Both the position numbers and the translations under genes were made by a program. Below the pieces are notes generated by a model. The model saw only the letters and a list, made by a program, of their open reading frames with translations, searched no databases and had not been told where the DNA came from. Below are positions 619 to 12,328 of a stretch of DNA of 64,000 nt, one piece after another (position 1 is the first letter of the stretch; every line of letters begins with the position of its first letter). This stretch comes from Parashewanella tropica (GTDB taxonomy: Bacteria > Pseudomonadota > Gammaproteobacteria > Enterobacterales > Shewanellaceae): assembly GCF_004358445.1 (NCBI RefSeq), contig NZ_CP037951.1, forward strand, positions 3,607,001 through 3,671,000. Reading direction: 5' to 3'.

Positions 619-2385
619 TTGAAATTACTCAATCGTTTATACCCTCAACCTAGCGAGCTTCTGCCTAGCTATTTGCATCGACTGGCAAACGGCAATGGCT
701 ATAGGAATATTCAAACCTTGATGAAGCTATTAGGGGAGGAGCTGGTTAACACAAGAGTACCGAGTAAACGATTATTCTTTGGTGGTTTTGATACTGAAAA
801 GTTGGCAAGCCTGGTAAACCAGCCTCATCAACAAATTGAATCAAGACAGCTAATAAAACATGGGGCAACTCGCTTCAGCTATATGGAACAACATTTCTTA
901 GCTAAAGCCTTCGACTTCACTTACTTAAAAGTTTGCCCTCATTGCTATTTTGAAGCATCCACATTCAATCTTCTTAACAGCTTAAAGGTGAAAAGCTGTT
1001 GTACTAAGCATCGGTGTAGCCTGCTTTCAATCAATCCCGATAACGGGAAGAAACTGAGTTGGAGTACCCATCACCTGAAAACGAAATTACCTGAGTGGGT
1101 AAAACACATTCCAGCCAAAGCAATAACCGAGCAAGAATTCCTACTAAACCAACATATTGAATGCTTATGGGGACAACAGCCAAGCTCGATTTATCCTGTT
1201 GTAAATAACTTGAACTTGTCGGACTTTATCGATGTCTGTAGTTTTTTATCTCACTTTCACTTGAGAGCATTTCCTGCTCACAAAAGTTCCGACAACCCAT
1301 TTTTAATCACTCACGATTACTTGTGTGATTGGCCGAACAAGTTCTATGAGTTACTCGATTACTTTCAAAAGCATCCAATGAGAACGAAAGGGCTTACTGG
1401 AATAAGAAATTGCTACAGAGATTTGTATGATGATCTTTGTTCTACTGAAAACAGCCAATCTGATGGCTACCGACTTTTAAAACAAGCCTTTGATCAGTTT
1501 ATTCAATCACATTTTAGCAATGGTAATTTCAACGCCAACATAACTCTTATTGATAGCGATATTCTCTCATCAAGAGCCTTTGTAAACCAAACACAAGCAA
1601 TGGCAGTTCTTGATGTTCCAGTATCTAAGTTTAAAGTTCTACTCAGAGAGTCCTTCCTTAAAGCTAAAACTGTCCTGAAAAATGGCGATGCTATGTATGC
1701 TCGCTCAGACATCACCACACTCAAAACTCGCCTAGAAAGGTGCTTAAGTTTAGAGTGTACGGCCAAGCTACTTGGCTTGAGTCAATACCGCTTAAAGCTT
1801 TTGATTAATGGCGGGATCATCAAGCCGTTACTTAAACCAACCAAAACCAATAGGGACTGGCTTATTGAAAATGAAGAATTGGAAATCTTCGTCAAAAGGT
1901 TAGTCTCCTGTGCTCAATTGAAAGTAACCAAATCAAACAAGCATCAAATTAAACAATTTCAATTTTTTGGTATGGATTTTTTAGAGCTGGTGAAGCAAAT
2001 GCTAGATGGGCAGATAGCTTATACCTACAACCCTCTCAAACGCTCTCCTATGGCATTTAAACAGTTTATTCCAGTGAGAAGTAAGCATGAACAGCCAGAT
2101 CCTGAATGGTTATCACCAGCTGAAGCCTGCACCTATTTAGAAGTAAACAAAAATGTGATTTACGAACTACTCAAAAAGAACTTTATCAAAGGCAAGAAGA
2201 AAAGCGTAAAGCGAACCGCCAGACCAGTGCTTCATATTCACAAAGCCAGCGCCATTGAGTTCAAAAACGCATACCAGTTAAGGCATCAAATCCACGAACC
2301 TGAACGCCATACAATTGTTCACGGGAAAAATGTTGATGGGTTTATGATTAACTTGTATCAGAGAATCAACCAAACAATAATCTAG
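619..2385 (+). CDS. tnsD: TnsD-like TniQ-family target-selection protein (long TniQ)
   Basis: 588 aa starting at a TTG. A TAA lies seven codons upstream in frame and no ATG intervenes, so TTG is the best start. The N-terminus (YPQPSELLPSYLHRLANGNGY) matches the TniQ family opening. A zinc-finger-like CPHC followed by C and CxxxH lies near residues 112-137. The C-terminal half has three segments that look like helix-turn-helix folds, near residues 325-370, 375-425 and 495-545; the last (WLSPAEACTYLEVNKNVIYELL) resembles MerR/excisionase-type domains. In Tn7 the long TniQ relative TnsD binds a fixed chromosomal att site, so here it probably recognises parE. It stands apart from the short TniQ of the cas operon. 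The homing role is inference; family membership is well supported. Confidence 0.85.
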   Translation: MKLLNRLYPQPSELLPSYLHRLANGNGYRNIQTLMKLLGEELVNTRVPSKRLFFGGFDTEKLASLVNQPHQQIESRQLIKHGATRFSYMEQHFLAKAFDFTYLKVCPHCYFEASTFNLLNSLKVKSCCTKHRCSLLSINPDNGKKLSWSTHHLKTKLPEWVKHIPAKAITEQEFLLNQHIECLWGQQPSSIYPVVNNLNLSDFIDVCSFLSHFHLRAFPAHKSSDNPFLITHDYLCDWPNKFYELLDYFQKHPMRTKGLTGIRNCYRDLYDDLCSTENSQSDGYRLLKQAFDQFIQSHFSNGNFNANITLIDSDILSSRAFVNQTQAMAVLDVPVSKFKVLLRESFLKAKTVLKNGDAMYARSDITTLKTRLERCLSLECTAKLLGLSQYRLKLLINGGIIKPLLKPTKTNRDWLIENEELEIFVKRLVSCAQLKVTKSNKHQIKQFQFFGMDFLELVKQMLDGQIAYTYNPLKRSPMAFKQFIPVRSKHEQPDPEWLSPAEACTYLEVNKNVIYELLKKNFIKGKKKSVKRTARPVLHIHKASAIEFKNAYQLRHQIHEPERHTIVHGKNVDGFMINLYQRINQTII

Positions 2386-2473
2386 ATAAAAGTATAAGCA
2401 TTAACAATGAGTTACTAAAACTATTACATGATAACGAGTAGAATCATGTTAAAAGCTTTGAAAAGAGGTGGGA

Positions 2474-2836
2474 ATGAATCTAGCTCAGAAAACTAACCAG
2501 CCCCAAGGTTGTATTATTCCGGAAGGGTGGGTCATTCTGAAAATAACTAATGACGAAGAAAACCCATTCTATAAAGTATTTTCCAGCTGGGATGAACCGT
2601 TTCAAGATAAGTGGCGTCTATCATCTGGTGCAGACCTTTGTGAGCTTGTTGAAAACGAAAAAGCGTACATTTGGCCGCAATCGTCAGGCTCAGTTTATTG
2701 GCTTCCAAAGGGCGCTCAGGGTAATTGCACTTTATCGAATTCACAAAAGCTGGAAGAGTTTCTGAGGCTAGATGGTGTTGAGAGTGTAGAACTAAACTCT
2801 GGCTTAATCTCACAAGATAAGGAGGAATTACAATGA
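2474..2836 (+). CDS. Hypothetical protein of the transposon
   Basis: 120 aa starting at ATG 2474 behind GAGGTGGGA; a GTG two codons earlier is the alternative. The protein is acidic, rich in Trp, Pro and Gly (GWVILKITNDEENPFYKVFSSW), and has no signal peptide or membrane segment. I do not recognise the family. Its TGA overlaps the ATG of the next gene, so the two are probably translationally coupled. It lies 88 bp after the TnsD-like gene and could be co-transcribed with it. It may be cargo or an accessory gene. Confidence 0.65.
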   Translation: MNLAQKTNQPQGCIIPEGWVILKITNDEENPFYKVFSSWDEPFQDKWRLSSGADLCELVENEKAYIWPQSSGSVYWLPKGAQGNCTLSNSQKLEEFLRLDGVESVELNSGLISQDKEELQ

Positions 2837-3027
2837 AAGCATATCACGCCATCATTGTGTTTCTTTTGCTTACTCTTGCTTATGTTTTTGTATTGTCGCT
2901 GCCAATTTATTTTTTGTGGAATTGGCTTATGCCCAGCTTATTTCATCTTCCCAAGATTGAGTATCTGCAATGCATAGGATTGCTTTTCATCATCATGTTA
3001 GCGAGAGGCTTTTTTTCGAATGGATAA
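2833..3027 (+). CDS. Small two-helix membrane protein
   Basis: 64 aa, starting at an ATG that overlaps the stop of the upstream gene (ATGA) and preceded by a strong GGAGG at 2820-2824. There are two hydrophobic stretches, about residues 5-33 and 43-60, with a charged C-terminal end (ARGFFSNG). This gives a small inner-membrane protein with two predicted helices. The coupling suggests a partnership with the 120-aa protein before it. I do not recognise the family; the strong ribosome site and the overlap are the main reasons to call it real. Confidence 0.65.
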   Translation: MKAYHAIIVFLLLTLAYVFVLSLPIYFLWNWLMPSLFHLPKIEYLQCIGLLFIIMLARGFFSNG

Positions 3028-3050
3028 GTGATGATGACACAAAACTAAAC

Positions 3051-3068
3051 ATAGCCATCCGTGGCTAT
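3051..3068 (-). terminator. Hairpin at the end of the CRISPR array
   Basis: A perfect inverted repeat (ATAGCCA, 4-base loop, TGGCTAT) follows the last repeat directly. On the minus strand it is followed by GTTTAGTTTTG, which is T-rich but not a clean U-run. It probably ends the pre-crRNA. It could also act on the plus strand for the small membrane gene ending at 3027. Confidence 0.55.
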
Positions 3069-11544: not shown

Positions 11545-12187
11545 AACTCTCACCACTATGTTGAATTACTGATGATGTTGAGATTATCTCAATATTAATT
11601 GGAGCTATTAACTTACGCTCAAAGATCAACCTATGAATTTGTTCTAATTCATACTCTCTTTTATCTTGAGTAATTAGCTCTGCAATAGTGAGATTTTTTT
11701 TTGATTCGAATGCCGTGATAATTTTCACTAAAAATGCTTTATCTAATTTGAGACGCGTTGCAGAGTAAACGTTAACTAGATTTTCATAGGTAGGCTGCTT
11801 TCGAATAAAAAGCTCGGTAATTACGATAACTCTAGAACCTTGAGAGATAAGTGATTGATTGATTGCTTCAATCCATTGTTCAAAATTATCAATTCGTGTT
11901 TTATCTGCTTCATATTTGACTTCGATATAAACAACAGATCCGTTTTGATATGTAACTTTAAAGTCAGGGGTATAACTTCTTAACTTTCCATCAAAGAAAT
12001 AAGTAATGGGGAAGGGTTGAGCTTGATAGCTTACGACGTTCTTATCGAACTCTAAATGATAGCAAAGGTCAGCTTCGAGTGGGCTTTCAGTGTATGTTGG
12101 GTAATCCTCGCTTTTCCTTCCATGAAAGACATTTACGCTCTTTGACATCAGCTTTCGAACATCTCTGCGCTTTTGCTTTTTTGCCAT
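11528..12187 (-). CDS. tnsA: TnsA endonuclease, 5'-strand nicking subunit
   Basis: 219 aa. The restriction-endonuclease-like active site is present: ESPLEADLCYHLEF near residue 35, YTPDFKV near residue 75 and YIEVKYE near residue 88 (Glu, Asp, Lys). TnsA cuts the 5' ends so that the element moves by cut-and-paste; a separate, complete TnsA is normal for I-F3 elements. It is the first gene inside the parE-proximal end. No Shine-Dalgarno is evident before ATG 12187; a strong inverted repeat sits there instead. Confidence 0.94.
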   Translation of the reverse strand: MAKKQKRRDVRKLMSKSVNVFHGRKSEDYPTYTESPLEADLCYHLEFDKNVVSYQAQPFPITYFFDGKLRSYTPDFKVTYQNGSVVYIEVKYEADKTRIDNFEQWIEAINQSLISQGSRVIVITELFIRKQPTYENLVNVYSATRLKLDKAFLVKIITAFESKKNLTIAELITQDKREYELEQIHRLIFERKLIAPINIEIISTSSVIQHSGESYECYI

Positions 12188-12192
12188 TGCAA

Positions 12193-12222
12193 GTGACTCT
12201 GATAAATTTTCGTCAGAGTCAC
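12193..12222. promoter_or_regulatory. Perfect 10-bp inverted repeat just upstream of tnsA
   Basis: GTGACTCTGA at 12193-12202 and its exact complement TCAGAGTCAC at 12213-12222 are separated by 10 bp and end 5 bp before the tnsA start codon. The geometry fits an operator for a dimeric repressor, or a hairpin in the 5' leader of the tns-cas transcript. No ribosome site is visible between it and tnsA. Confidence 0.55.
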
Positions 12223-12235
12223 GCTACATCACGTT

Positions 12236-12328
12236 AATGTCAAATTATGCTTTGTTAATGTGACATGTTATGAGCATTGAGTGACAACTTATGGTCGTTA
12301 AATGTCAGCTTATGGTCGAATCACCACA
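12236..12328 (-). repeat. Transposon end with four TnsB-like binding sites
   Basis: Four related sites lie in tandem about 21-22 bp apart: 12301-12318 (CGACCATAAGCTGACATT on the minus strand), 12280-12297 (CGACCATAAGTTGTCACT), 12258-12275 (GCTCATAACATGTCACAT) and 12236-12252 (AGCATAATTTGACATT). They share a CATAA core followed by TGACAT-like bases, as in known I-F3 ends. The terminal TGT would be at 12328-12326, ten bases before the CCATAA core. If so, the 5-bp target duplication next to it reads TTAAT on the minus strand. The exact terminus could shift by 1-2 bases; seeing the other end would settle it. Confidence 0.8.

Follow-up and report, generated by a model that had tools for sequence, protein, structure and literature searches.

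A probable parE-branch type I-F3 CRISPR-associated transposon in Parashewanella tropica, with two predicted target selectors

Most CRISPR (clustered regularly interspaced short palindromic repeats)-associated transposons (CASTs) of type I-F3 home by a self-matching CRISPR RNA (crRNA), as stated in PMC11406308. Section 3.3.2 of that paper describes a third I-F3 branch with two TniQ proteins, of which one recognises a site next to parE and the other has CRISPR-Cas as its partner, and its Table 1 lists Tn7017/EasCAST as a type I-F3 CAST with a TniQ-targeted parE site. According to passages of PMC10293859, Tn7017 uses TnsD for homing, the branch mostly lacks Cascade, and only a few dual loci carry distantly related TniQ and TnsD; the core phylogeny given there was built with TnsC. 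A parE-targeting I-F3 element, PcCAST of P. curva C51, is named in the review PMC12719977. The dual-selector arrangement at parE is already in print, and the element of Parashewanella tropica described here, located in a stretch of 64,000 nucleotides (the window), is a further example of that branch. Taken as a whole, the locus is very probably a Tn7-like transposon that belongs to the parE branch within type I-F3, and its two target selectors would feed one TnsC-TnsAB core, TnsD serving homing and TniQ-Cascade mobile targeting, with exchange of the selectors as a block.

The type I-F3 CAST gene set (TnsABC, TniQ, Cas8/5, Cas7, Cas6 and array) was found within one element (Table 1), and family models matched all the genes of the I-F3 module that the initial annotation, made from the letters alone, had called complete. 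Leftwards from parE, the minus strand carries tnsA, tnsB, tnsC, tniQ, cas8/5, cas7, cas6 and the array in this order, and left of the array the plus strand carries two small open reading frames (ORFs) and then a 588-aa TniQ-family protein. In an alignment of 13 proteins, E38, D75, E89 and K91 of TnsA were invariant, as were D274, D359 and E395 of TnsB, which we take to be the DDE residues. The solved entry closest to the short TniQ, 7u5d, also contains Cas8/5, Cas7 and Cas6 chains. The array consists of five repeats with a 60-nt period; four of them are identical 28-mers, and the leader-distal repeat has a degenerate 3' end. Neither an adaptation gene nor a Cas2/3 nuclease gene was recognised in the element, whose cargo was scanned for ORFs of at least 90 aa, and no Rfam match was obtained at gathering scores for window positions 1-13000.

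The element is 19,628 bp long and lies at the 3' end of parE, with most of it inside the window; its left end is at genome position C1:3599699, 7,302 bases (~7.3 kb) before window base 1. The span 619..12328 given earlier for the element held a real element but covered only part of it, the right end being at 12326 rather than 12328 and the left end lying outside the window. Insertion at parE was confirmed by exact ends and a target site duplication (TSD): AATTG, in the sense of parE, flanks both tips, and each tip lies 12 nt beyond the outermost TnsB-like site. The right tip reads TGGTGATT. Three TnsB-like sites were found at the left end, weaker than the four of the right end, and lower-scoring matches were scattered elsewhere. 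By eye the tip would seem to start with TGT, but this was rejected, since TGGTGATT and TGATGTTT agree with the TSD and with the 12-nt spacing found at each end. The insertion split the stop codon of parE, and seven residues (CGDSTIS) were added to ParE by the transposon end; when the flanks were joined by eye, the former end of parE read ...AEIN-TGA.

Compared by description only, the element resembles Tn7017, for which Klompe 2022 is reportedly the primary paper, in its I-F3 Cascade, its short TniQ plus TnsD, its parE site and its probable homing by TnsD. Traits of the parE/TnsD branch of I-F3 were observed in the window element, namely insertion beside parE and, in addition to the short TniQ, a larger protein of the TniQ family whose C-terminal part is of DNA-binding type (TniQ plus HTH_17). 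The I-F3b CAST on Aeromonas salmonicida pS44-1, presumably Tn6900, has a homologous TniQ-Cascade (best TniQ match 37%), but differs in having no TnsD match in 29 kb, a helix-turn-helix (HTH) regulator between tnsC and tniQ, and a more distant core (TnsB 34% and TnsC 29% identical to the nearest of three Parashewanella elements).

Homologues of TnsD were searched for in 369 genomes of the class (one protein as query, E 0.001), 152 of the family and 394 of the order (three-row profile, E 1e-10); these samples overlap, and those of class and order are parts of larger groups, the family being given as 152. Strong homologues (E <= 1e-10) were found, besides the genome of the window (G000), in P. 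curva (G385), which shares its genus, and in a third Parashewanella (G386) from the family sample, and in three outsiders of the same order (G667, G647 and G606) from the order sample. Weak matches were obtained for G107 and G158 in the class and for G457 and G486 in the family; the stretches examined in G107 and G158 contained no ParE. All six genomes with strong homologues carry an element at the 3' end of parE, and a left-end TSD copy with TnsB-like sites was found in every one. The distance from the putative tip to the first base of the DRK codon was 50, 50, 51, 49, 51 and 51 nt in G000, G385, G386, G667, G647 and G606, the tip of G667 being uncertain by one or two as its repeat is longer than five bases. 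The ParE proteins of G667, G647 and G606 are only 72-78% identical to those of Parashewanella, but the insertion point is still the same; in the five elements other than that of the window it lies 3-6 nt after the start of the parE stop codon. Left-end TSD candidates numbered 2, 3 and 2 in G000, G386 and G647, from which the choice was made by repeated sites and the 12-nt spacing; in G386 the sequence beyond the chosen end is, besides, similar to the empty site of G387. The 3' end of parE is uninterrupted in two further genomes of the genus, and one of these, the sister genome G388, contains other TnsB homologues at C1:1987273-1988925 and 3854017-3854739 (29% and 38%).

The three outsiders are dual TniQ-TnsD elements whose cores are the nearest by TnsB and whose TnsD is 28-37% identical, but they differ in lacking cas matches and an array in the stretches scanned. 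Cas8/5, Cas7 and Cas6 gave no match at E 0.01 in 60, 60 and 20 kb of G667, G647 and G606, and no CRISPR-like array was found in G667 and G647 to their left ends or in G606 to contig base 14000 of about 19,600. The short TniQ of G667 is only a weak tblastn match after tnsC. Cascade is present in G385 and G386, with spacers unlike each other's and unlike those of the window; among the nine spacers of the three Cascade elements, no pair shares 18 or more of 32 positions. As a partial control, 19 other I-F3 loci of the order, fetched via TniQ (20 of the 394 genomes including that of the window), gave no match to TnsD or ParE, only 4 of the 19 stretches including a TnsA match. Because the Cascade-less elements share the site and the Cascade elements have unrelated spacers, TnsD, and not a guide RNA, is the common factor at parE. 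The proposal of the initial annotation that a protein selector handles homing gains support from the same comparison and from the lack of a detectable parE guide; a division of labour in which TnsD, and not crRNA, would home the element to parE is well supported. The parE elements may have either gained or lost Cascade.

The search for such a guide was made at several levels. None of the four spacers had been seen to match parE, and no score exceeded those of shuffled controls: against parE plus 300 bp, scored with every sixth position ignored and thus over 27 positions, the window spacers reached at best 15-17, equalled by 6 to 58 of 60 shuffles. A guide elsewhere in the element was also sought, in the array and in the whole element against the last 250 bp of parE, and was not found. 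Among all 32-mers of the 19.6-kb element the top score was 21, as compared with 19-22 for 20 shuffled targets, and no repeat-like sequence (at least 17 of 28) was detected in the element outside the array. Homing by a self-matching and often atypical crRNA, the trait of I-F3a and I-F3b, was not observed for the window element, and with no parE-matching guide in array or element it is therefore not filed as either. As to mobile targets, the spacers gave no convincing hit in plasmid and phage databases: three matches only to plasmids (E about 10), three only to phages (E 0.9-3), and none for any of the four in IMG/VR, where only exact matches outside every sixth base were detectable. In five genomes of the genus, arrays apart, the best match, of 21 nt (E 0.04), ran from spacer 4 into the adjoining repeat. 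The DNA of the tnsABC region (9000-12000) had no match among plasmids.

TniQ PF06527 matched both the 402-aa and the 588-aa proteins; the larger one, starting with TTG at 619, was correctly recognised as a second TniQ-family protein, but of its several reported HTH-like segments only one was detected by Pfam (HTH_17, 497-526). In the three Cascade-less homologues the Pfam HTH lies at another place, about 375-424, and at least two HTH segments in TnsD are plausible. No solved chain was matched by phmmer with TnsD at E 1. In the TniQ-family tree the two proteins fell apart, the short TniQ joining the Cascade TniQs and the six TnsDs forming one clade (Shimodaira-Hasegawa-like approximate likelihood ratio test, SH-aLRT, 98) apart from them. 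The six parE elements likewise form one clade in the TnsB tree (96/97), and a grouping of Parashewanella with all other CASTs without the three Cascade-less elements was rejected by the approximately unbiased (AU) test (p-AU 0.0036). As judged by TnsB, the core would therefore relate to the Cascade-less parE elements, although the alternative was not rejected with TnsC (p-AU 0.31); TniQ and the Cas proteins have their best scores among chains of CAST effector entries. Left out of the TnsB and TnsC trees and of the AU tests described below were G107, G158 and Acinetobacter (long branches) and rows under the length limits. No relative of TnsD was found in viral_contigs; two Acinetobacter plasmids carry TnsD relatives (25%) in elements without annotated cas genes, their gene table being incomplete.

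The different parts of the three Parashewanella elements are not related in the same manner (Table 2). PcCAST in G385 (L007, L018) has the same gene set as the window element, with TnsD 91%, TniQ 83% and Cas8/5 87% identical, but TnsA, TnsB and TnsC are only 49, 53 and 51% identical, and its TnsB-site sequence, spacers and cargo are different. By the AU test, the grouping of G000 with G385 was rejected for TnsB (0.0016) and TnsC (0.0002), and that of G385 with G386 for Cas8/5 (0.0004), TniQ (0.0115; tree without G647 and G606) and TnsD (1.5e-5). The nearest partner of G385 switches from G386 to G000 between the 300-column segments at 8503 and 8237, coinciding with the tnsC stop (8441) and the tniQ start (8399), and the end sequences follow the kinship of tnsABC. 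These three relatives suggest that different transposase cores have traded their aiming parts en bloc; TniQ-Cascade-array and TnsD, together the selector block, seem to have been exchanged as a unit against tnsABC, in one direction or the other.

Table 2. Amino acid identity (%) between proteins of the three Parashewanella genomes (Cas6 of G386 left out)
Protein	G000-G385	G000-G386	G385-G386
TnsA	49	49	62
TnsB	53	53	70
TnsC	51	55	73
TniQ	83	48	49
Cas8/5	87	46	45
Cas7	81	53	56
Cas6	84		
TnsD	91	47	47
ParE	100	93	94

The mosaic could also reflect unequal rates, with a fast tnsABC in G000 and no exchange, and the TnsB branch of G000 is indeed longer (0.52 as against 0.22 and 0.22) in a comparison of only three elements. 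Rate alone cannot, however, place G385 nearer to G386 in TnsABC yet nearer to G000 in TniQ-Cas-TnsD. Both alternative groupings were rejected for TnsB and TnsC, as were both alternatives to G000 plus G385 for Cas8/5, TniQ and TnsD, and the switch at the tnsC/tniQ boundary is sharp, the end sequences going with tnsABC; an explanation by rates is thus very unlikely. The stronger proposal, that TniQ-Cascade-array and TnsD make up one exchangeable cassette recombining at the tnsC/tniQ boundary between cores about 50% identical, with one TnsC interface accepting both foreign selectors, is given slight preference. Both selectors would then work with either core. No description of the mosaic was found in print, as judged by titles and abstract openings.

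From these comparisons the following mechanism may be proposed. TnsD would bind the conserved 3' coding end of parE, bringing the element to one safe site of the chromosome, and its TniQ domain would recruit TnsC. TnsAB would then carry out the insertion, for which the site, the distance of about 50 bp to a fixed position within parE and the TSD were observed. The short TniQ, with Cas8/5-Cas7-Cas6 and crRNAs from the array, would, to judge by the family, send copies to plasmid or phage DNA. Among the Parashewanella elements, the selector block may have been exchanged against the tnsABC core, as the discordant kinship indicates.

Several results weigh against this interpretation. As no spacer target was found, its RNA-guided half rests on family membership. 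The TnsC tree did not resolve the deep relations of the core (p-AU 0.31), a union of the Parashewanella TniQ with the short TniQ of G647 and G606 was not rejected (p-AU 0.22), and the clades compared by the AU tests were defined once the identity table was known, so that their p-values are optimistic. AlphaFold2 on TnsD, with a two-row alignment, gave no usable fold (mean predicted local distance difference test score, pLDDT, 30.6). In addition, one of 13 guide-like sequences tested over the three elements (nine spacers and four array tails), the 32-mer tail after the last G386 repeat, matched parE at 19 of 27 positions and exceeded all 60 shuffles. This tail bears on a rival explanation, in which the element finds parE under RNA guidance like I-F3a/b elements, through a crRNA that is delocalised or strongly degenerate, and TnsD has some other function. 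Such homing is the way of most I-F3 CASTs (PMC11406308), the window array ends in a degenerate repeat and the last G386 repeat is also variant. However, the G386 match was the only one of its kind in 13 tests, and about 1.2 kb separate it from the insertion, where a distance near 50 bp would be expected; the tails of the window and P. curva arrays reach 15 of 27, as do 57-58 of 60 shuffles, and the scan of the whole element stayed within the range of shuffled targets. Together with the use of the same parE site by three elements without any cas gene found, this makes RNA-guided homing highly improbable.

Inactive elements are common, and all three CAST-bearing hosts found belong to one genus, as would be expected if the element were fixed at parE by descent with neither selector active, the co-occurrence of TnsD and parE being a matter of history. 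The TSDs differ between elements (AATTG, TGACT, AAAAT, ATTAA), though, as separate insertions would give. Furthermore, the 3' end of parE is uninterrupted in two genomes of the genus, related elements occupy the same site in three other genomes of the order, and frames are open with catalytic residues kept; fixation by descent is accordingly considered very unlikely. Active homing by TnsD with a separate TniQ-Cascade selector remains the preferred explanation.

Table 1. Features of the element and its target in the window
Feature	Position	Strand	Basis or remark
Element, part within window	1..12326		same 5-bp TSD at either end; tips 12 nt from TnsB-like sites
YobI-like P-loop protein gene, 5' part	1..326	-	cargo; start and frame in window by eye; rest left of window
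tnsD-like, 588 aa, proposed parE selector	619..2385	+	TniQ domain (6-135), C-terminal HTH_17 (497-526); homologues in parE elements that have or lack Cascade
122-aa ORF between array and tnsD	2468..2836	+	ORF alone; Pfam, NCBIfam, PADLOC and PHROGs gave no family
CRISPR array	3069..3336	-	repeats 3309-3336, 3249-3276, 3189-3216, 3129-3156, degenerate 3069-3096; four 32-nt spacers between
cas6 (csy4), 204 aa	3460..4074	-	TIGR02563 above cut-off; Cas_Csy4; solved-chain match
cas7 (csy3), 348 aa	4075..5121	-	TIGR02566 above cut-off; Cas_Csy3; solved-chain match
cas8/cas5 fusion, 683 aa	5135..7186	-	Cas_Csy2 match; solved-chain match
tniQ, 402 aa, Cascade-type	7191..8399	-	PF06527; best solved relative TniQ of entry 7u5d, E 2.2e-75
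tnsC, 357 aa AAA+ ATPase	8441..9514	-	TniB/AAA; best solved relative VchTnsC, E 4.1e-45
tnsB, 679 aa transposase	9517..11556	-	best solved relative named IF3A Tn6677 TnsB, E 2.3e-82
tnsA, 219 aa	11528..12187	-	PF08722 (TnsA N-terminal)
Right end, four TnsB-like CATAA sites (12295, 12274, 12253, 12230)	12230..12314	-	spacing 0, 21, 42, 65
Host parE	12305..14215	-	parE_Gneg match; last seven codons (first one split) from transposon end, past former TGA stop
TSD CAATT (AATTG in parE sense)	12327..12331		second copy at left end, outside window

The cargo ORFs of at least 90 aa belong to Septu, are YobI-like or have no family. Left of the window, the cargo includes Septu PtuA/PtuB and the YobI-like protein, which matches the PADLOC Tmn model (L005 13121-15243 and 16592-19999). 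Beside the array, a 64-aa ORF (window 2833-3027, plus strand) matches two phage families, phrog_705 (E 3e-9, unknown) and phrog_2169 (E 1e-5, membrane protein). The P. curva and G386 elements carry related cargo (L007 6264-8702; G386 C223:56450-58900) with about 79% DNA identity over 2.7 kb, which by eye resembles a subunit of type I restriction-modification. In P. curva, the left TSD of the element is immediately followed by another Tn7-like end of the right type, with TGATGATT and three CATAA sites (L019 13976 onward; G385 C12:85976-87048). This end would come from a tandem insertion at that parE site or be the remnant of one; visual inspection of the 1 kb of contig left beyond it showed no TnsA-like ORF.

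The element adds a complete and precisely bounded example to a small CAST branch in which homing and RNA-guided spread are split into two proteins, and the relatives at its site in which no cas gene was found amount to an experiment of nature in which the crRNA is deleted. Exchange of tniQ and tnsD would give dual loci in which the two proteins are distantly related, as mentioned in a passage of PMC10293859; their joint exchange would not show in such a test. The mosaic looks like a natural selector swap between divergent cores, so that the specificity of the TniQ/TnsD-TnsC interface becomes directly testable. If the cassette proposal is true, the selectors of the window element would work with TnsABC and the ends of the P. 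curva element.

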